Of a stretch of DNA of 33,254 nt, positions 5,022-14,555 are shown piece by piece. The notes beneath the pieces are model-generated. The model was not told where the DNA came from. It was given only the letters and a program-made list of their open reading frames with translations, and did no database searches. The translations under genes and the position numbers were made by a program. This DNA comes from Deltaproteobacteria bacterium (GTDB taxonomy: Bacteria > Desulfobacterota > GWC2-55-46), in assembly GCA_016219025.1 (NCBI GenBank), contig JACRCM010000108.1:1-33254 (forward strand), read 5' to 3'. Position 1 is the first letter of the stretch. Each line of letters opens with the position of its first letter.

Positions 5022-5050
5022 TTGACATTGTTTCTATATTTCGCAATAAT
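5022..5050 (+). promoter_or_regulatory. Sigma70-type promoter of the ArsR-family gene
   Basis: A perfect -35 box TTGACA (5022-5027) is followed after 17 bp by AATAAT (5045-5050), which matches five of six consensus -10 positions. Transcription should start near 5057, giving a leader of about 36 nt that contains GGGAG at 5081-5085 before the ATG. Confidence 0.8.
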
Positions 5051-5054
5051 GAAA
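5027..5054. promoter_or_regulatory. Probable ArsR operator, site 1
   Basis: The 24-bp core at 5031-5054 is an imperfect inverted repeat: TTTC, two bases, TATT, four bases, AATA, two bases, GAAA. It covers the spacer and -10 box of the arsR promoter, where a repressor would block RNA polymerase. The 28-bp segment 5027-5054 matches 5800-5827 at 22 of 28 positions. ArsR-family dimers usually bind imperfect palindromes of this size. Binding by this protein is inferred. Confidence 0.65.
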
Positions 5055-5092
5055 CTGCATGGCCGCAACGGAGCGGTCAAGGGAGCGGCGCG

Positions 5093-5422
5093 ATGAAGAT
5101 GAGCAAAGAGGTGTTCGAGCTGCAGGCCGAGATTTGCAAGACCCTTGCCAACCCCAAGCGCCTCGAGATAATCGCCGCGCTCAAGGACGGGGAACTCTCG
5201 GTGGGCGAGCTCGTGGATATGCTCGGCGCGACAAAGGCAAACGTCTCCCAGCACCTCTCGGTGCTCCGCCAGAGGAGGGTTGTCCAGTCGAGGAGAGAGG
5301 GCGTGAACATCTTCTACAGCATCAACAACCCCAAGATAAACGAGGCGTGCGCCCTTATGAAGAGCGTGCTCATGGAGCAGCTCGCCGAGGCCGAGAGGCA
5401 GGCGCGGCGGGTGAAGAGGTGA
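5093..5422 (+). CDS. ArsR-family winged-helix transcriptional regulator
   Basis: This 109-residue protein has the ArsR/SmtB layout. ICKTLANPKRLEIIAAL is at about 14-30. The DNA-reading helix-turn-helix is LSVGELVDMLGATKANVSQHLSVLRQRRVV at about 35-64, and the wing is SRREGVNIFYSI. Such proteins are dimeric repressors released by metals, redox change or sulfur species. The CxC metal motif of classical ArsR is absent; the only cysteines are C15 in the first helix and C86 in the last. Two well-separated cysteines recall sulfur-sensing BigR/SqrR/YgaV relatives, although equivalent positions have not been aligned. The gene has a strong promoter overlapped by an inverted repeat, suggesting autorepression. 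A DUF2892 protein and an RND transporter follow on the same strand. Confidence 0.9.
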   Translation: MKMSKEVFELQAEICKTLANPKRLEIIAALKDGELSVGELVDMLGATKANVSQHLSVLRQRRVVQSRREGVNIFYSINNPKINEACALMKSVLMEQLAEAERQARRVKR

Positions 5423-5567: not shown

Positions 5568-5780
5568 ATGACGGTCGAAAGGCATTTAAGGCTCATTGCG
5601 GGCGTATTCATCATCGCGTCCCTTGTTCTCTCAAGGGTGCACTCGGAGTATTGGCTGCTCTTTACGGGCTTCGCCGGACTCAACCTCACGCAGTCGTTTT
5701 TCACCAAATGGTGCCTGATGATGACGATACTGAGGTCCCGCGGCGCAAAAGACCCCGCCGCGCCGGGCTGCTGCCGGTAG
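5568..5780 (+). CDS. DUF2892-type small inner-membrane protein
   Basis: This 70-residue protein begins MTVERHLRLIAG, has two hydrophobic segments (about 8-23 and 26-41) joined by a short turn, and continues GLNLTQSFFTKWC. The ERxLRLIAG start and the GLNLxQSxFTxWC region are typical of DUF2892, the domain that also anchors the E. coli rhodanese YgaP. The tail ends in PGCCR, giving three cysteines that could react with sulfur species or metal. AGGAG at 5554-5558 is 9 nt before the ATG at 5568; a GTG at 5562 is in frame but too close to it. Its place right after an ArsR regulator parallels ygaV-ygaP, which suggests a role in sulfur or persulfide handling. The family is fairly sure, the role inferred. 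Confidence 0.8.
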   Translation: MTVERHLRLIAGVFIIASLVLSRVHSEYWLLFTGFAGLNLTQSFFTKWCLMMTILRSRGAKDPAAPGCCR

Positions 5781-5799: not shown

Positions 5800-5831
5800 A
5801 TTGTTTCGTTATTACGCAATCTTGAATCAAT
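5800..5831. promoter_or_regulatory. Probable ArsR operator, site 2, upstream of the RND gene
   Basis: The first 28 bases (5800-5827) match site 1 (5027-5054) at 22 of 28 positions, including the shared blocks ATTGTTTC, TATT, CGCAAT and TGAA. This copy is itself an inverted repeat up to 32 bp long, with outer arms ATTG (5800-5803) and CAAT (5828-5831) and inner TTC and GAA. It lies 14 nt upstream of the RND start codon. I cannot assign a clean -35/-10 pair here. Confidence 0.6.
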
Positions 5832-5845
5832 AGAGAGGCAGGCCG

Positions 5846-8149
5846 ATGCAGAGGCAAACGCTCGTCGAATTCTCCGTAAAACACCCGCGTCTCGTCCTTG
5901 TCATCGCGGCGGCATTGACCGCCGCCGCGCTCGCCTTATTTCCGGGCATGAAGGCCGACACGAATCCCAAGAACATGCTCCCCCCCGACTCGGCGGTGCG
6001 CGTCTGGAACGCCGAGGTGGACGGGACCTTCGGCCTCTACGAGGACATGCTGGTGGTGGGCGTCGTCAATGAGGCGGGGGTGGTGAACCCGGGGACGCTC
6101 GCCAGGATAGCCCGCATAACGGAGGCGGCGGCGCGGATAAAGGGCGTTGCGCGTTCCGACGTGGCCGGGTTCACCACGATAACGAACGTCACGGCCAGCG
6201 CCGGGACGCTCCGCGTGGCCCCTCTCATGGGACGCCCGCCTGAGACGCCGGAGGAGTTGGAGGCGTTCAGAAAAGACCTCTTCGGCAACCCGCTCTACGC
6301 GGGCCGCGTCATCTCGAGGGACGGAAAGACAACGGCCATATATATTCCGCTTGAGAAGGGCGCGAACGGCAAGGCCGTGGCGGACGAGCTCCGCGGGATA
6401 GTCCGGGCCGAGGGAGGGCCTGAGGAGTATTATGTCGCCGGAGACCCGGTGGCGAGAGACACCTTCGGCTCCATCATGTTCAAGCTGATGGCCAAGTTCT
6501 CTCCCATCGCGGGCGCGATAATGTTCGTCGCGGTCCTCGTGATGTTCCGGAGCCTCGTCCTCGCCTGCTCGATGATGGCCGTGGCCATGATAAGCGTCGT
6601 CTGGAGCATGGGACTTCTCATCGGCCTCGGGTACCCGGTGCACATCATGAGCTCGATGGCCCCGGTCTTTCTCATGGCCATAGCGACCGACTCTATCCAC
6701 ATCTTCAACGAGTTTTCCTTCAGAAGGAAGGAGGCCCCCGACAGGCGCACGGCGATAATCGAGACGATGCACGCGGTGGCAAGGCCCGTCAAATTCACGG
6801 CGCTCGCCACCGCTGCCGGGTTCGGCGTGCTCGTCTTCATGTCCATCATACCCGTTAAGGTCTTCGGCGTGACGATAGCCTTCGGCACGGTGGCGCTCCG
6901 CCTTTTGAGCTTCAGCTTCATCCCGGCGGTGCTCATGCTGACGCGCGATAAGAAGGCCGGGCCTGAGGCGGACGCGCCGGGCCGCGGGCCGGGCGCGTTT
7001 CTGAGAAGCCTCTCGGCCATCGGCGCGTTGCGTCCACGCGCCACGGTGGCCGCCGTAATCGTCCTCATGGCCGTCTCCGCCATCGGGGTCACGCGCATCG
7101 TCGTCAACAACAACATGGTCGAGTGGTTCAAGAAGGACAGCGACGTGCGCCGCTCGGACGCGGCCATCAACTCCGCGCTCGGCGGCACCTCGCTCGCATA
7201 CATAGTCGCCTCGTCGGATAAGGAGGAATACATGAAGACCCCGGAGGCCATGCGCTATATCGAGGGGCTTCAGCGCCGCCTTGAGACGCTTGAGGCCGTC
7301 GGCAAGACGAACTCGGTCGTTGATTACGTGAAGAGGATCAACCTCGTGCTCCATGACAATGACCCGCATTTCGACGCGGTGCCCGGCTCTAAGGAAGAGA
7401 TAGGCCAGTACCTCTTCCTCTTCGGCATGTCGGCCAAGCCGTCCGACCTCGACAACGTGATAGACCCGTCGTTTACCAAGGCGAACGTCTGGGTGCAATT
7501 GAAGACGTGGGACGTTCGCGCCATGCGCGAGGTTATGAAAACAACCGAGGTGTACATGGCGGCGAACCCCGGGGCGATTGTCCTCAAGCCCGCGGGCACG
7601 GCGTATTTCAACCTCGTCTGGAACGACGAGGTGCTCTGGGACATGCTCAAGGGCTTTATAATCGCGCTCGTCGCGGTCTTCGTCATACTCACCTTCAACT
7701 TCCGCTCTATCGGATGGGCGGCGCTCGGGTATGCGCCCCTCCTATTCACGATACTCCTCATCTACGGGGCCGTGGGGTACGCGGGCAAGGACTTCGACAT
7801 GCCGATCTCGGTCCTTTCGTGCCTGTCGCTCGGCATGGCCGTGGATTTTTCCATCCACTATATAGCGAGGTTCAAGGAGAGGCTGGCGTCGATGGAGGGC
7901 GGCGGGGACGTGGTGGCCGCGTTATTATGGACGGCCGAGAGGCCGGGCAGGGGCATAGCAAGAAACGCGATACTCTTCGGCGCGGCGTTCTCGGTCATGC
8001 TCTTCGCGCCGCTTACGCCCTACGTGACGGTCGGCGCGTTCATCGTGGCCATGATGACGCTCTCCGCGCTATTTACGATGGTGCTCCTGCCCGCGCTCAT
8101 CGTGCTCTTCGGGAAAAGGCTTGTTAAAGGGAACATCCGTCTAAGCTGA
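5846..8149 (+). CDS. RND transporter of the HAE3/MMPL type
   Basis: This 767-residue inner-membrane protein has two repeated halves. Each has one membrane helix, a large periplasmic domain and a five-helix bundle, giving about 12 helices. The first helix is near residues 16-34. The conserved membrane acidic residues lie in IATDSIHIFNEF (D282) and GMAVDFSIHYIARF (D667), the positions used for proton coupling in the MMPL/HAE3 branch. Relatives such as HpnN and MmpL move lipids, hopanoids or other hydrophobic molecules using the proton gradient. The length is shorter than the roughly 1000-residue drug-efflux RND pumps. AGAGAGG (5832-5838) supports the ATG at 5846. A probable ArsR operator lies just upstream. 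The LolA-fold and barrel genes downstream suggest transport between the membranes; substrate and direction are unknown. Confidence 0.92.
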   Translation: MQRQTLVEFSVKHPRLVLVIAAALTAAALALFPGMKADTNPKNMLPPDSAVRVWNAEVDGTFGLYEDMLVVGVVNEAGVVNPGTLARIARITEAAARIKGVARSDVAGFTTITNVTASAGTLRVAPLMGRPPETPEELEAFRKDLFGNPLYAGRVISRDGKTTAIYIPLEKGANGKAVADELRGIVRAEGGPEEYYVAGDPVARDTFGSIMFKLMAKFSPIAGAIMFVAVLVMFRSLVLACSMMAVAMISVVWSMGLLIGLGYPVHIMSSMAPVFLMAIATDSIHIFNEFSFRRKEAPDRRTAIIETMHAVARPVKFTALATAAGFGVLVFMSIIPVKVFGVTIAFGTVALRLLSFSFIPAVLMLTRDKKAGPEADAPGRGPGAFLRSLSAIGALRPRATVAAVIVLMAVSAIGVTRIVVNNNMVEWFKKDSDVRRSDAAINSALGGTSLAYIVASSDKEEYMKTPEAMRYIEGLQRRLETLEAVGKTNSVVDYVKRINLVLHDNDPHFDAVPGSKEEIGQYLFLFGMSAKPSDLDNVIDPSFTKANVWVQLKTWDVRAMREVMKTTEVYMAANPGAIVLKPAGTAYFNLVWNDEVLWDMLKGFIIALVAVFVILTFNFRSIGWAALGYAPLLFTILLIYGAVGYAGKDFDMPISVLSCLSLGMAVDFSIHYIARFKERLASMEGGGDVVAALLWTAERPGRGIARNAILFGAAFSVMLFAPLTPYVTVGAFIVAMMTLSALFTMVLLPALIVLFGKRLVKGNIRLS

Positions 8150-8260
8150 AAGCGGGACTTTCGGGGAATCGCGTTCACAGGAAAACTTGAGAACGGGCCT
8201 CGGCTTGCCGAGGGCGGCACGAAATAATCCTCTCAGTCTCACGCCCGCCCCCTCACCCTG

Positions 8261-8315
8261 CCCTCTCCCCCGTCCCCCTCATCTGATTATAAGGATGGGG
8301 GACGAGGGAGAGGGG
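8261..8315. repeat. Long GC-rich hairpin in the RND to LolA-like spacer
   Basis: The left arm at 8261-8283 and right arm at 8294-8315 are near-complementary over about 22 bp, around a 10-base loop (TGATTATAAG). Short pairings continue outside the arms. CCCTCTCCC/GGGAGAGGG hairpins of this kind are common dispersed repeats in GC-rich bacterial genomes. No T run follows, so it is not a standard terminator, but it could weaken read-through or protect an mRNA end. Confidence 0.6.
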
Positions 8316-8394
8316 ATGAGTGGTTGAGCGTAAAAGACGAATCAGGTAATGCTCCCCGGTAAATAGACCGGATATAAAACCAAGGAGGGTTGAC

Positions 8395-9186
8395 ATGAAA
8401 AAATATCTCTTCATCTGCCTCTCGGCGCTCCTCGTGGCCGCGAGCGCACGGGCCGCCGCGCCGGAGGAGATCATGCGCTCGTCCCAGGCCGCGTTCCTCT
8501 ATCAGGGCAAGGATTTCAAGGCGCGAGTCGTGATGCGGCTTACCGGCAAGACCGGCGCAGAGCGTATAAGGGAACTGACCATGCTCCGCAAGAATTCGGG
8601 CGCTCCGGGCGGAGATCAGAAATACTTCATATACTTCTACAAGCCCGCCGACGTGAAGGACATGACGTTCATGGTCTACAAGTATCCCAAGAAAGACGAC
8701 GACCGCTGGCTCTTCATCCCGGCGCTCAACATGGTGAGGAGGATCGCGGCGCAGGACAAGGCGTCGAGCTTCGTCGGCTCGGATTTTACATACGAGGACG
8801 TGTCCGGCCGGGACATCGACGACGACGCGCACGTCCTCGTAAAAGAGGAGAGGCTAGGCTCGTCCGACTGCTACGTCGTCAAGAGCGCGCCGAAGGAGGG
8901 CGGCATGGATTATGCCTACAAGCTCTCGTGGATAGACAAGGGGAATTACCTGCCCCTCAAGGAGGAGTACTACGACGGGAGATCCGGGCTGTATAAGGTC
9001 TTCTCCGCCGACGAGATAAAGACCATATCCGGGATACCGACGGTCACGAGGCGCGCGATGAAGAACCTCTCAAGCGGGCATAAGACCGAGGCGGAATTCA
9101 CCAGGGTCGAATACAACACCGGCATAGAGGACTCCCTCTTCAGCGAGCGGTTCCTCAAGCAGCCGCCCAAGAAGCGGATAGAGTAG
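8395..9186 (+). CDS. Periplasmic outer-membrane lipoprotein-sorting-like protein (LolA-fold)
   Basis: This 263-residue protein starts with a signal peptide (MKKYLFICLSALLVAASARA, cleavage near residue 21). The mature part has features of the LolA-like family often annotated as outer-membrane lipoprotein-sorting protein: EIMRSSQAAFLYQGKDFKARVVMRL, YFYKPADVKDMTFMVY, DRWLFIPALNMVRRI and GSDFTYEDV. That fold is a half-barrel that shields a lipid tail. AAGGAGGG is placed well before the ATG. The gene sits 245 bp after the RND transporter and 31 bp before the barrel gene. By established association, proteins of this family accompany MMPL-type pumps, so it is probably the periplasmic carrier for the pump's substrate, separate from the housekeeping LolA at 13899. 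Confidence 0.88.
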   Translation: MKKYLFICLSALLVAASARAAAPEEIMRSSQAAFLYQGKDFKARVVMRLTGKTGAERIRELTMLRKNSGAPGGDQKYFIYFYKPADVKDMTFMVYKYPKKDDDRWLFIPALNMVRRIAAQDKASSFVGSDFTYEDVSGRDIDDDAHVLVKEERLGSSDCYVVKSAPKEGGMDYAYKLSWIDKGNYLPLKEEYYDGRSGLYKVFSADEIKTISGIPTVTRRAMKNLSSGHKTEAEFTRVEYNTGIEDSLFSERFLKQPPKKRIE

Positions 9187-9217
9187 GCGCGACGATAACA
9201 ATGCAACCGGAGCGGAT

Positions 9218-10462
9218 ATGAAAAAGGCCATGCTCTTTGCCGTAATGCTCGCGCTCTTTGTCCTCCAGCGCGGCGCGCGCGCCGAAGATTCCCCGATACA
9301 CGGCTTCATACAGGGCAACTACTCGGCGGATACGGACGCCAGGAACCCGGACAACGGACGGTTGAAGTGGTCTGAGGAGCGCGGACAACTCCGTCTCGAC
9401 GCAACGAGGGAGCCTTACAGACTCTTCATCAAGACCGACGTATTCTACGACAACGTGGCGCAAGCTCAGGACGTTGAACTGCGCGAGGGCTACGTCGACC
9501 TGACCGGCGAGAAGTGGGACGCGCGCGCGGGGAGACAGATAATAACCTGGGGCGTCGGCGACCTCATATTCATAAACGACGTATTCCCCAAGGACTATGA
9601 GGCGTTCTTTTCCGGCAGGCCAATGGAATACCTCAAGAAAGGCGTTGACGGCGTGAAGGCGGGCCTCTATCCCGGCGGCGTCTCAATCGAGGCGGTCGCC
9701 ATCCCGTTCTTCGAGCCGAACAACCTGCCTGATACGCGGCGGTTCTGGCTCTTCGACCCCATGCCCAACGTGCAAAACAGGGTGAAGAAAGAGCCTGCCT
9801 CCACCCCCCGCAATACCGAACTGGCCATCCGCGCCTACGGAAGCGCAGCGGGTTTCGACGCATCGCTCTATGCCTATAAAGGCTGGCACAGAAACCCCTC
9901 GATGCGTCCCGGCGGCATGGGCAGCCCCGCGAGGATAACGCTCGTCTACCCTGAACTGCGCGTCTACGGCGGGAGCCTGCAGAAGGCCGCCTTAGACGGC
10001 GTGATGAGCCTCGAGGCCGGTTACTATGACTCGCGGGACGGCAAGGCCGGGCAGGACCCGCTCGTGCCTAACTCTCAGGCGCGGTTCCTCGCCGGGTATC
10101 AGAGGCAGTTGCGCGAAGACCTTACCCTCGGCGTCCAGTATTACGGGGAGCGGATGATGCAATATTCGGCTTACGAATCCACGGCCATGCCGGGCTTTCC
10201 GAAGGAGCCGCGCTACAGACAGGTGGCGTCCCTGCGCCTGACGCAACTCCTCATGCACCAGAACCTGAGGCTCCAGTGGTTCTCGTTCTACGGCATCACC
10301 GACAGGGATTATCTCCTGAACCCGGAGGCGCGCTACAACTTCACGGACAATATCTGGGCGGCTGTAGGGGCCATGATCTTCGGAGGCGCGAAGGATACCA
10401 CCCAGTTCGGCTCTCTCGACAGGAACGACAACGCATATATGCAGGTCAGATACGAGTTCTGA
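9218..10462 (+). CDS. Outer-membrane beta-barrel protein (DUF1302-like)
   Basis: This 414-residue protein has an N-terminal signal peptide (cleavage near residue 23) and then alternating amphipathic strands, ending in MQVRYEF. A C-terminal phenylalanine preceded by alternating residues is the usual signal for barrel assembly by Bam. The segment GRQIITWGVGDLIFINDVFPKDY (about residues 106-128) resembles the GRQxxxWGEGxFxxxND region of DUF1302-type proteins, which often neighbour HAE3 pumps. It is the last gene of the RND set and would provide or contact the outer-membrane end of the route. The barrel assignment is well supported; the exact family is moderately so. Its substrate is not known. 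Confidence 0.78.
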   Translation: MKKAMLFAVMLALFVLQRGARAEDSPIHGFIQGNYSADTDARNPDNGRLKWSEERGQLRLDATREPYRLFIKTDVFYDNVAQAQDVELREGYVDLTGEKWDARAGRQIITWGVGDLIFINDVFPKDYEAFFSGRPMEYLKKGVDGVKAGLYPGGVSIEAVAIPFFEPNNLPDTRRFWLFDPMPNVQNRVKKEPASTPRNTELAIRAYGSAAGFDASLYAYKGWHRNPSMRPGGMGSPARITLVYPELRVYGGSLQKAALDGVMSLEAGYYDSRDGKAGQDPLVPNSQARFLAGYQRQLREDLTLGVQYYGERMMQYSAYESTAMPGFPKEPRYRQVASLRLTQLLMHQNLRLQWFSFYGITDRDYLLNPEARYNFTDNIWAAVGAMIFGGAKDTTQFGSLDRNDNAYMQVRYEF

Positions 10463-11763: not shown

Positions 11764-13902
11764 ATGGCCAAGACCAAAAACGCCTCCCCTGACAAAGATA
11801 CGGACTCAGGGCACAAGCTGGAGATAATAGGCATAGCGGTCATGGCCGTTGGCCTCTACGCCGGGGTTAGCCTCTTTTCATACATAGGCGCGTCCGTCAA
11901 CTGGGGAGGCGCGGTCGGCGATTATCTCTCCCGCGGCCTCCTCTACTCCGTAGGCTACGTCTCATACTGTCTGCCGTTCTTCCTGATATTCGTGTCCGTG
12001 GGATTGGTGCTCAGGCGCGTCTTCGCGTTCCGGCCCGTCGTGCCGATAAGCCTCGGCGTCTTTATCCTCTCGGCATCGTCTCTCCTATCCGAGCTTTGGG
12101 GCACTGAAGAGGCAGGAGGCGTAGCCGGCTCATTCCTGAGCGGATACCTCACGTCGTGGTTCGGGTATACGGGCGCGGCGATAATCCTCGTCGCCATAGT
12201 CCTTATCGCCATACTCCTCGCCACCGGCCTATCGCTCATCCAGTTCGGGGTAAGGCTCACCCCGCTCATCGCGTCGCTGTTCAAGAAGGAAGAGGAGGTT
12301 GAAGCGGATGAGGCCGAGCCTGCGGCGTTGCCTGTCGAAGACGAGCCCGAGCCGGAACCTGAGCCTAGGCCCAAGACCCCTGTCCTGACCACGCCTAAGA
12401 TACACGCGAAGACCCGGCCTCCTGCCGAGGAGGCGCCGAAGGAGAGGCTTGAATTCAACAGCCCGAAAGGCTCGTTCGAGCTTCCGCCCCTCTCCCTCCT
12501 CGACGCCCCGCCAGAGAAGACCGACGCGCTCGACAAAAAGGAGCTCCTTGAGAACGCGAGGATACTTGAGAGGAAGCTCCTGGACTTCGGCATAGAGGGC
12601 CGCGTCCTCGAGGTCATGCCCGGGCCGGTCGTCACCATGTACGAGTTCGAGCCCGCCGCCGGGGTCAAGGTCAACAGGATAACGAACCTCTCGGACGACC
12701 TCGCGCTCGCCATGAAGGCCGCCACCATAAGGATCGTCGCGCCGATACCGGGCAAATCCGTCGTTGGCATCGAGATACCCAACCAGAAGCGCGACATGAT
12801 ACTCCTGCGGGAGATGCTTGAGTCCTCCGCGTTCGCAAAGTCGCGCTCGCGCCTCACGCTTGCGCTCGGCAAGGACATATCGGGTGCGCCTTATGCCGCC
12901 GACCTCGCCCGGATGCCGCACCTCCTCGTGGCCGGGGCGACCGGCACGGGCAAGTCCGTCTCAGTGAACTCCATGATACTCTCGATCCTCTACAAGGCCA
13001 CGCCCGAGGACGCACGTTTCCTGATGGTAGACCCCAAGATGCTGGAGTTGTCGGCCTATGAGGGCATACCGCACCTCCTGACCCCGGTGATAACCGACCC
13101 CAAGCGGGCGGCCGGGGCGCTGCGCTCCATAGTCTCCGAGATGGGCAAGCGCTACAAGGCAATGGCCGAGAAGGGCGCGAAGAACATAGACAAATACAAC
13201 CAGATTATCGATGAAAAGGAGAAGGCCGGCGAGGAGAACGGCGAGCACAAGCGCCTCCCTTACATAGTCGTCATCATAGACGAGCTCGCGGACCTGATGA
13301 TGACATCCGGCAAGGACGTTGAGGAGTGTCTTGTGCGCCTTTCGCAGATGGCGCGTGCAGCCGGGATACACCTGATGGTGGCCACCCAGAGGCCGTCGGT
13401 CGACGTGGTGACCGGCCTCATAAAGACGAACTTCCCGGCGAGGATCGCGTTCCAGCTCCCGTCCAAGACCGACTCGCGCACCATACTCGACGCGGGCGGG
13501 GCCGAAACGCTCCTCGGGCAGGGCGATATGCTCTTCATCCCGCCCGGCACCTCGAAGCTGCAACGCATCCACGGGGCTTATGTCTCGGAGACCGAGATAA
13601 AAAACGTCACGGACTTCTGGAAGAGGCAGGGCATGCCCGCTTACGACCACGTCCTGATAAAAGAGTCGGAGGAAGAGGGCGAAGACGCGGGCGGGGACGG
13701 AGAGGACGAGGAGTTCCTGCGGCGCTATGACGAGGCCGTGGAGATGGCGAGGGAACTTGAGATGATATCGACCTCCTACGTCCAGCGCAGGTTCAGGATA
13801 GGGTACAACACCGCCGCGCGCATCATCGAGCGGATGGAGCGCGACGGCATAGTCGGCCCGGCGCAGGGGAGCAGGCCGAGGGAGGTGCTTAAAAGGCAAT
13901 GA
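11764..13902 (+). CDS. ftsK: DNA translocase FtsK/SpoIIIE
   Basis: FtsK is a septum-located ATP-driven motor that clears and aligns chromosome ends during division. This 712-residue version is short compared with E. coli FtsK (over 1300) because its linker is small. It has four N-terminal membrane helices (roughly 21-40, 61-82, 94-110 and 136-157). An acidic proline-rich linker (about 175-215, with an EPEPEPEPRPK run) precedes the motor domain. The Walker A motif GATGTGKS is at 391-398 and the Walker B-like IVVIIDELADLMM near 500. The C-terminal gamma winged helix, which reads KOPS-type sequences, is EMISTSYVQRRFRIGYNTAARIIERMERDGIVGP. The stop overlaps the lolA start (ATGA). No Shine-Dalgarno sequence is evident. 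Confidence 0.96.
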   Translation: MAKTKNASPDKDTDSGHKLEIIGIAVMAVGLYAGVSLFSYIGASVNWGGAVGDYLSRGLLYSVGYVSYCLPFFLIFVSVGLVLRRVFAFRPVVPISLGVFILSASSLLSELWGTEEAGGVAGSFLSGYLTSWFGYTGAAIILVAIVLIAILLATGLSLIQFGVRLTPLIASLFKKEEEVEADEAEPAALPVEDEPEPEPEPRPKTPVLTTPKIHAKTRPPAEEAPKERLEFNSPKGSFELPPLSLLDAPPEKTDALDKKELLENARILERKLLDFGIEGRVLEVMPGPVVTMYEFEPAAGVKVNRITNLSDDLALAMKAATIRIVAPIPGKSVVGIEIPNQKRDMILLREMLESSAFAKSRSRLTLALGKDISGAPYAADLARMPHLLVAGATGTGKSVSVNSMILSILYKATPEDARFLMVDPKMLELSAYEGIPHLLTPVITDPKRAAGALRSIVSEMGKRYKAMAEKGAKNIDKYNQIIDEKEKAGEENGEHKRLPYIVVIIDELADLMMTSGKDVEECLVRLSQMARAAGIHLMVATQRPSVDVVTGLIKTNFPARIAFQLPSKTDSRTILDAGGAETLLGQGDMLFIPPGTSKLQRIHGAYVSETEIKNVTDFWKRQGMPAYDHVLIKESEEEGEDAGGDGEDEEFLRRYDEAVEMARELEMISTSYVQRRFRIGYNTAARIIERMERDGIVGPAQGSRPREVLKRQ

Positions 13903-14555
13903 GGCGCGAACCGGACTGGACATACGCAAAGGCGCTCCTTCTATTGCTCCTTGCGCTCCTGCTGCCGGCGCCTTCAGCGGCCGCCGACCTCGACTCGATA
14001 CTCGCAAGCCTTACGGAGCGTTACTCGTCCGTCAAAGCGCTCTCGGCGGACTTTACGCAGGAGACCATTGCAAAGGGCGCTAAGAGAGGCGAGGTCTCGA
14101 AGGGCAAGGTCTGGTTCAAGAGGCCGGGCAAGATGCGCTGGGTCTACGAGACGCCGGTCACGGACGAGATAACAGGCAACGGCAAATACGTCTGGATATT
14201 CCAGCCGGACATCAATCAGGTCATTGAAAAGCCCGTGGACAACGCGTATCCGTCCATCACCACGGATTTTCTCGGCGGCATAGAGACCCTGAAGAAGGAC
14301 TTTAAAATAACCCTTGCAAAGGCCGGGACCGAGTCTTATCTTTTAAATCTGGAACCTCTCGCGCCGGACGCCGGGATAAGGCGCATCGCGGTGGGTATTG
14401 ACAGAAAGAGCGGGTTTATCGTAAAGACCGTGGCAGAGGACCCGCTCGGAGGCTCCACGACCGTGCGTTTCGAGCGGATAAGGACGAACGCCGAGGCGCC
14501 GGACTCCATCTTCGAGTTCAAACCGCCCAAGGGCGCAACGGTGGTAAGGCCATAG
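13899..14555 (+). CDS. lolA: Outer-membrane lipoprotein carrier LolA
   Basis: LolA is the periplasmic chaperone that takes lipoproteins from the LolCDE transporter to the outer membrane. The 218-residue precursor has a signal peptide (leucine-rich core near residues 11-24, cleavage after PSAAA near 29). The mature region matches the family: DLDSILASLTERYSSVKALSADFTQE, KGKVWFKRPGKMRWVYETP, YVWIFQPDINQV and FEFKPPKGATVV near the end. The start overlaps ftsK by four bases, so the two are translationally coupled. The ftsK-lolA order is common in Gram-negative bacteria. A second, more distant LolA-fold protein is encoded at 8395. Confidence 0.94.
   Translation: MRREPDWTYAKALLLLLLALLLPAPSAAADLDSILASLTERYSSVKALSADFTQETIAKGAKRGEVSKGKVWFKRPGKMRWVYETPVTDEITGNGKYVWIFQPDINQVIEKPVDNAYPSITTDFLGGIETLKKDFKITLAKAGTESYLLNLEPLAPDAGIRRIAVGIDRKSGFIVKTVAEDPLGGSTTVRFERIRTNAEAPDSIFEFKPPKGATVVRP

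Follow-up and report, generated by a model that had tools for sequence, protein, structure and literature searches.

What an inner-membrane pump, a periplasmic carrier and an outer-membrane barrel encoded by three consecutive genes move between the two membranes, and in which direction, is the question raised by a 33,254-nucleotide stretch of DNA, here called the window, that makes up contig C65 of a draft genome (2.18 Mb in 170 contigs) of a Deltaproteobacteria bacterium. The nearest named relatives are groundwater metagenome-assembled genomes (MAGs) of 'Deltaproteobacteria', Nitrospirae and Thermodesulfovibrionales, and most of the data underlying the survey described here are metagenome bins. 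An original prediction, made from the letters of the window, had proposed that the three proteins transport a lipid or other hydrophobic molecule across the envelope. A hydrophobic cargo is supported by the conservation of the set and by its experimentally studied relatives, but the emphasis on lipid is not borne out, as close relatives hold the set inside sulfane-sulfur operons. The reading that we favor, with a chance a little short of even, is a regulated trans-envelope unit whose cargo is hydrophobic zero-valent sulfur (S8 or polysulfane, free or capped) that comes from sulfide:quinone oxidoreductase (SQR) and is moved outward.

The three genes lie consecutively on one strand where the prediction had placed them, and the classes assigned to their products hold up. 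The pump matches the MMPL family (PF03176, 109 bits; cut-off 20.5), and its best NCBIfam model is HAE3 (TIGR00921, residues 16-754, 162 bits), though that score is under the 352-bit cut-off. It has about 12 transmembrane-like hydropathy peaks, and its Asp/His pairs D282/H285 and D667/H671 are kept in 97-100% of 68 orthologs. The carrier scores 207.6 bits with PF17131 (LolA_like; gathering cut-off 30) and only 28 bits with DUF1329, and it has a signal-peptide-like N-terminus that lacks a lipobox Cys. It is distinct from the true LolA of the window (13899-14555), which passes TIGR00547 (148 vs 112) and PF03548, whereas the carrier matches neither of these LolA models. A structure model of the carrier (pLDDT 79) resembles LolA3 of Porphyromonas gingivalis (9tp6; TM 0.82/0.90, 32% identity), a protein from another phylum that is the closest solved fold, and reaches a TM of only ~0.4 (query) with true LolA; its Foldseek matches are 9tp6, 4z48 and 3bk5. 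A carrier without a hydrophobic cavity looks unlikely because the LolA3 crystal structure has a hydrophobic groove (PMC13103446). Assignment of the third protein to the outer membrane is likely because it has a signal peptide, a strand-rich AlphaFold model (pLDDT 71; mostly beta strands, with porin- and AlgE-like Foldseek matches at low TM) and a C-terminal RYEF (..VRYEF). A terminal F is typical of outer-membrane barrels. The family name DUF1302 is marginal for this protein (22.6 bits, slightly under the gathering score of 23.2). Solved structures searched by sequence with the pump and with the barrel gave no match.

The pump-carrier-barrel set is real and is kept across phyla, beyond chance. 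In 80 genome stretches from the family, order and phylum that were read for their PF17131 genes, 69 of the 83 such carrier genes have pump and barrel genes no more than 6 kb away and in the same orientation. A further 80 loci, referred to here as the named loci, were found by profile, and some of these are the same contigs as the family and order stretches. The neighborhood survey that had been proposed as a check found the three genes together in 70 of these 80 loci, several of the others being cut by contig ends, rather than rarely together. The original prediction had regarded the pairing of the set with an ArsR regulator and a DUF2892 protein as less familiar. Both genes are real, but their presence is not accidental, since an ArsR gene precedes the pump gene in 15 of the 20 family and order loci (several others are again cut by contig ends) and the arrangement parallels ygaV-ygaP of E. 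coli. A gene for a YgaP-like protein precedes the pump gene in 6 of these loci. On the plus strand of the window the order is ArsR, YgaP-like transmembrane protein, HAE3/MMPL pump, PF17131 carrier and DUF1302-like barrel, and the five genes look like one regulated trans-envelope transport unit.

This kind of system is already known from AmeABCD of Castellaniella, and the new point is its sulfur context. The largest clusters of neighboring genes in the named loci encode a Pyr_redox_2 flavoprotein, DsrE, DsrH, DsrE_2, a YeeE/YedE sulfur transporter, a periplasmic rhodanese and an S-adenosylmethionine (SAM) methyltransferase; no lipid-synthesis gene recurs among them, which counts against a lipid cargo. 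Judged from its sequence, the flavoprotein is a true SQR because the copy in the window's own genome (contig C15) matches the SQR of A. ferrooxidans (3sz0) with 505 bits over its full length and because the SQR redox-type cysteines, C159 and C348, are invariant (63/63). One or more sulfane-sulfur families occur near 71 of the 80 named cassettes and near 15 of the 17 proteobacterial ones, compared with none of 35 control windows of 15 kb placed at round coordinates in genomes mostly of the same family (Fisher p ~2e-21 and ~3e-11, respectively, both overstated since the loci are related). The profiles for these families were seeded from cassette neighbors and somewhat favor cassette loci, and the gradient with carrier identity is less affected by this. 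Such a family lies near 13 of the 20 family and order cassettes and 9 of 60 further PF17131 loci from the phylum. Grouped by identity of the carrier to that of the window, the linked loci number 83 of 97 at 60% or more, 2 of 3 at 50-60%, 7 of 22 at 40-50% and 1 of 38 below 40%. On a quick carrier tree with many open forks and long branches, 17 changes suffice for the sulfur label, compared with 49.6 when the labels are shuffled, and the nearest rows to the window outside its own genus are sulfur-linked. The sulfur linkage follows the carrier subfamily.

A check by coordinates, independent of the profiles, was made in relatives that have both a close carrier (E <1e-100) and an SQR (E <1e-60). 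The SQR gene lies 2.4-3.2 kb from the carrier gene in 9 of the 12 genomes with both, where about 0.5% per genome is expected for one gene in ~2.2 Mb. In 54 named loci, a co-directional run of genes holds the carrier and a sulfur gene. The order is ArsR-DsrE-DsrE-DsrH-SQR-pump-carrier-barrel in locus L128 and SQR-DsrE-pump-X-rhodanese-YeeE-YgaP-carrier-barrel, with genes partly overlapping, in L136. The order DsrE-SQR-pump-carrier-barrel is found in the proteobacterial MAGs L178, L194 and L200, the first of which also has an ArsR-rhodanese fusion and a cysteine desulfurase. Sulfur genes are located between pump and barrel in 6 loci by an automatic count, and between pump and carrier in several. 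A dissimilatory sulfite reductase (Dsr) context was rejected, as dsrA is over cut-off in none of 40 relatives.

The regulatory genes of the cassette also bear on sulfur. The ArsR protein shares 35% identity with E. coli YgaV (E 4e-15), and C15 and C86 are conserved in 41 of the 62 aligned ArsR neighbors, the remainder of which look like different ArsR types. It is a relative of YgaV and BigR with two conserved cysteines, and it was not filed as a member of the SqrR/BigR group because these cysteines lie elsewhere than those of YgaV and SqrR; its score with the BigR model (67 bits) is also under the cut-off of 155. The ygaV-ygaP operon of E. coli, which like the window has an ArsR repressor followed by a YgaP-type transmembrane protein, is derepressed by sulfide (PMC9774250). 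It differs from the cassette in having no pump, and E. coli YgaP has a rhodanese domain, whereas the protein in the window has the transmembrane part only and was rejected as a rhodanese. A 29-bp motif found before arsR and again before the pump gene is identical at 23 of 29 positions, compared with a best of 20 in 20 shuffled windows. A pattern derived from both sites, ATTGTTTCNNNNTTNCGCAAT, matches the 2.18-Mb genome exactly at these two sites only. The motif precedes the arsR start by ~30 bp in L125/L045, L151/L053, L181/L056, L142, L057, L058 and L059, gave one weak match in 536 kb of control DNA, and was not found before the SQR or DsrE genes of the window's own genome. The SQR gene of this genome has a different operator-like element, TTTAATAAGTTGCGAAACTAT, 203 bp upstream (L205 3644-3664, contig C15), which shares 19 of 21 bases with an element 45 bp before arsR in L127/L047; elements of this type are absent from the control DNA. 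This SQR may be under the control of a second, related ArsR.

HAE3/MMPL pumps draw on the proton gradient to extract hydrophobic molecules from the inner membrane, LolA folds shield acyl-like cargo, and DUF1302 barrels reside in the outer membrane. In the favored reading, ArsR would act as a repressor at its own promoter and at a second site ahead of the pump gene, and a thiol-reactive sulfur signal would presumably release it. The proton-driven pump would pick up a hydrophobic molecule from the inner membrane's outer leaflet or deliver it there, the carrier would hold it in its groove for the passage through the periplasm, and the outer membrane would be crossed by way of the barrel, steps that we infer from the folds and from characterized relatives. 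Outward movement is the more likely direction for the sulfur product, in which case hydrophobic sulfur made by SQR would be kept from building up in the inner membrane.

Several observations weigh against the favored reading. The genes for SQR (C15:3847-5043) and DsrE (C152 and C91) of the window's own genome are on contigs other than that of the cassette, so the sulfur link rests on relatives, and these genes and the cassette are likewise split in the genus-mate and two further relatives. Some order-level relatives (G029-G037, carriers 42-47% identical) keep the cassette and have no match to this SQR query. The ArsR cysteines do not align with C31 and C98 of YgaV, the sensing positions of YgaV and SqrR. 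A methyltransferase is part of several of the operons, and plain S8 does not explain it. A groove that fits sulfur has been seen in no structure, and gene linkage points to regulation or physiology in common and not to the cargo.

The alternative that survives best, which we consider unlikely, is that the set is a general transporter of hydrophobic molecules or membrane lipids, for efflux of apolar toxins or lipid repair, and is merely co-regulated with sulfide-stress genes since sulfide damages the envelope. The characterized relatives fit this alternative. AmeABCD of Castellaniella defragrans, which like the cassette combines an HAE3 pump, a LolA-superfamily periplasmic protein and a DUF1302 outer-membrane protein, is a precedent for the export of apolar molecules, namely monoterpenes, by such a set, and mutants that lack it tolerate monoterpenes less well and accumulate more Nile Red (PMC6394551); this precedent counts for the favored reading as well. 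It differs from the cassette in its carrier (DUF1329, 451 aa, vs PF17131, 263 aa), an extra COG4447 protein, its gene order and a context of terpene catabolism instead of ArsR/YgaP and, in relatives, sulfur genes; with no fourth periplasmic gene, the window cassette is not a tetrapartite Ame-type set (DUF1302, DUF1329, COG4447 and HAE3). In P. putida, a DUF1302 barrel, a DUF1329 carrier and a pump are encoded by two separate loci, PP_0765/PP_0766 and PP_2018/PP_2019, whose products are predicted to interact and have been proposed to form a substrate transport system needed for growth on Tween20, with no link to sulfur reported (PMC10866462). Some cassettes have no linked sulfur genes, and most of the distant PF17131/MMPL/barrel sets lack sulfur neighbors, as the counts for the phylum and for carriers below 40% identity show. 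What argues for a sulfur cargo instead is that the linked genes are those of the SQR-to-DsrE sulfur relay themselves, some of them between pump and carrier, and co-regulation under stress requires neither. Export of hopanoids, as by the HAE3-family transporter HpnN, was rejected, given a low partial match of the pump to the HpnN model (82 bits, cut-off 752) and no partner genes; HpnN works without partner proteins (PMC6394551), and no hopanoid genes were seen at the window cassette.

A serious rival, though to our judgment an improbable one, is that the machine works inward and takes up extracellular elemental sulfur or polysulfide to feed the SQR/DsrE/rhodanese relay. The operons include genes of the YeeE/YedE importer family and the DsrE/DsrH relay, and a Desulfurivibrio porin encoded beside sulfurtransferases and YeeE/YedE has been proposed to import sulfur (PMC12142623). 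HAE3/MMPL pumps of known cargo, however, export from the inner membrane (HpnN and AmeD; PMC6394551), and sulfane sulfur is what SQR produces, not what it requires. There is a slighter chance that the cargo is an organic compound of sulfur (or selenium), methylated or otherwise, such as a dialkyl polysulfide, made by the methyltransferase of the operon. A UbiE-like SAM methyltransferase with the motif YDAWYETPLG is encoded in or near the operon in 30 of the 80 named loci, and in L140 its gene (6494-7153) lies between the carrier and barrel genes with its ends overlapping both; since some of the operons have it, an organic sulfur cargo is conceivable. A SelD-like gene is found near the SQR gene in the window genome and in 7 named loci. 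Many cassettes, including that of the window, have no methyltransferase, however, and the families that it matches best, with scores that are all far under cut-off, are quinone methyltransferases. A second lipoprotein-sorting (Lol) route, suggested by the LolA-superfamily fold and the Pfam name of PF17131 ('outer membrane lipoprotein-sorting protein'), is highly improbable and was rejected, as the window has a separate true LolA and the cassette no lolCDE, the carrier fails the LolA models and resembles LolA3 rather than LolA, and P. gingivalis LolA3 itself has no counterpart of the LolA Arg and shows hardly any binding to LolB (PMC13103446).

Outward transport of SQR-made sulfur stays the favored explanation. 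It is possible, if somewhat doubtful, that sulfide-controlled, envelope-spanning transporters dedicated to elemental sulfur or polysulfane are common to Nitrospirota-type, deltaproteobacterial and proteobacterial lineages and provide the missing route by which sulfur made by SQR leaves, or enters, Gram-negative cells. We know of no transporter family for zero-valent sulfur. None was found described in the open literature, nor was any report tying MMPL/LolA-like/DUF1302 sets to sulfur, in a search that covered open papers, so that priority is not proven. An operon that joins the conserved set with SQR offers named genes open to deletion and assay, and even if the cargo differs, a sulfur-linked subfamily is defined within the large and mostly uncharacterized HAE3/LolA-like/DUF1302 class.

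Table 1. Positions of the cassette genes and associated elements in the window
Feature	Position	Strand	Basis
Candidate sigma-70-like promoter of the arsR-ygaP-pump operon, TTGACA-17-AATAAT	5022..5050	+	11/12 consensus match only
Candidate ArsR operator 1, ATTGTTTCTATATTTCGCAATAATGAAAC	5027..5055	+	Motif shared with relatives; overlaps the promoter at 5022..5050
ArsR/SmtB-type repressor, C15 and C86 conserved	5093..5422	+	PF01022 and NF033788 over cut-off
Small membrane protein, YgaP-like transmembrane domain (DUF2892)	5568..5780	+	PF11127, 41.5 bits
Candidate ArsR operator 2, directly before the pump gene	5800..5828	+	23/29 identical to operator 1
HAE3/MMPL-type RND inner-membrane pump, 767 aa	5846..8149	+	PF03176, TIGR00921 match
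REP-like palindrome (arms of 18 nt) in the gap that separates the pump and carrier genes	8261..8314	.	Dispersed in genome
Periplasmic LolA-fold carrier, 263 aa	8395..9186	+	PF17131, model fit to 9tp6
Likely outer-membrane beta-barrel, DUF1302-like, 414 aa	9218..10462	+	Signal peptide, C-terminus, AlphaFold model

Upstream of the cassette is a gene that by eye resembles NAD synthase, and downstream are genes for dCTP deaminase, FtsK and the true LolA. A comparison with PHROGs gave no match. Copies related to the REP-like palindrome occur at about 8-9 other sites in the genome. The palindrome looks like an insertion because the genus-mate (L125) has only ~43 bp between the pump and carrier genes, and it may have a role in transcription attenuation or termination.

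Further genes recur around the cassettes of relatives. A FadL-type-looking outer-membrane protein is encoded just 3' of the barrel gene on the opposite strand in several betaproteobacterial loci (L179, L188, L198 and L202, at ~9.0-11.0 kb). A secreted-looking protein of ~133 aa with no convincing family match is encoded between pump and rhodanese in L136 (4267-4665) and is found in 14 named loci in all. Between ArsR and SQR, L157 (2072-2515) and seven other named loci encode a 147-aa protein that has no Pfam or NCBIfam match and contains the conserved-looking Cys motifs CDIC and YCP; it is possibly a new sulfur-handling protein.

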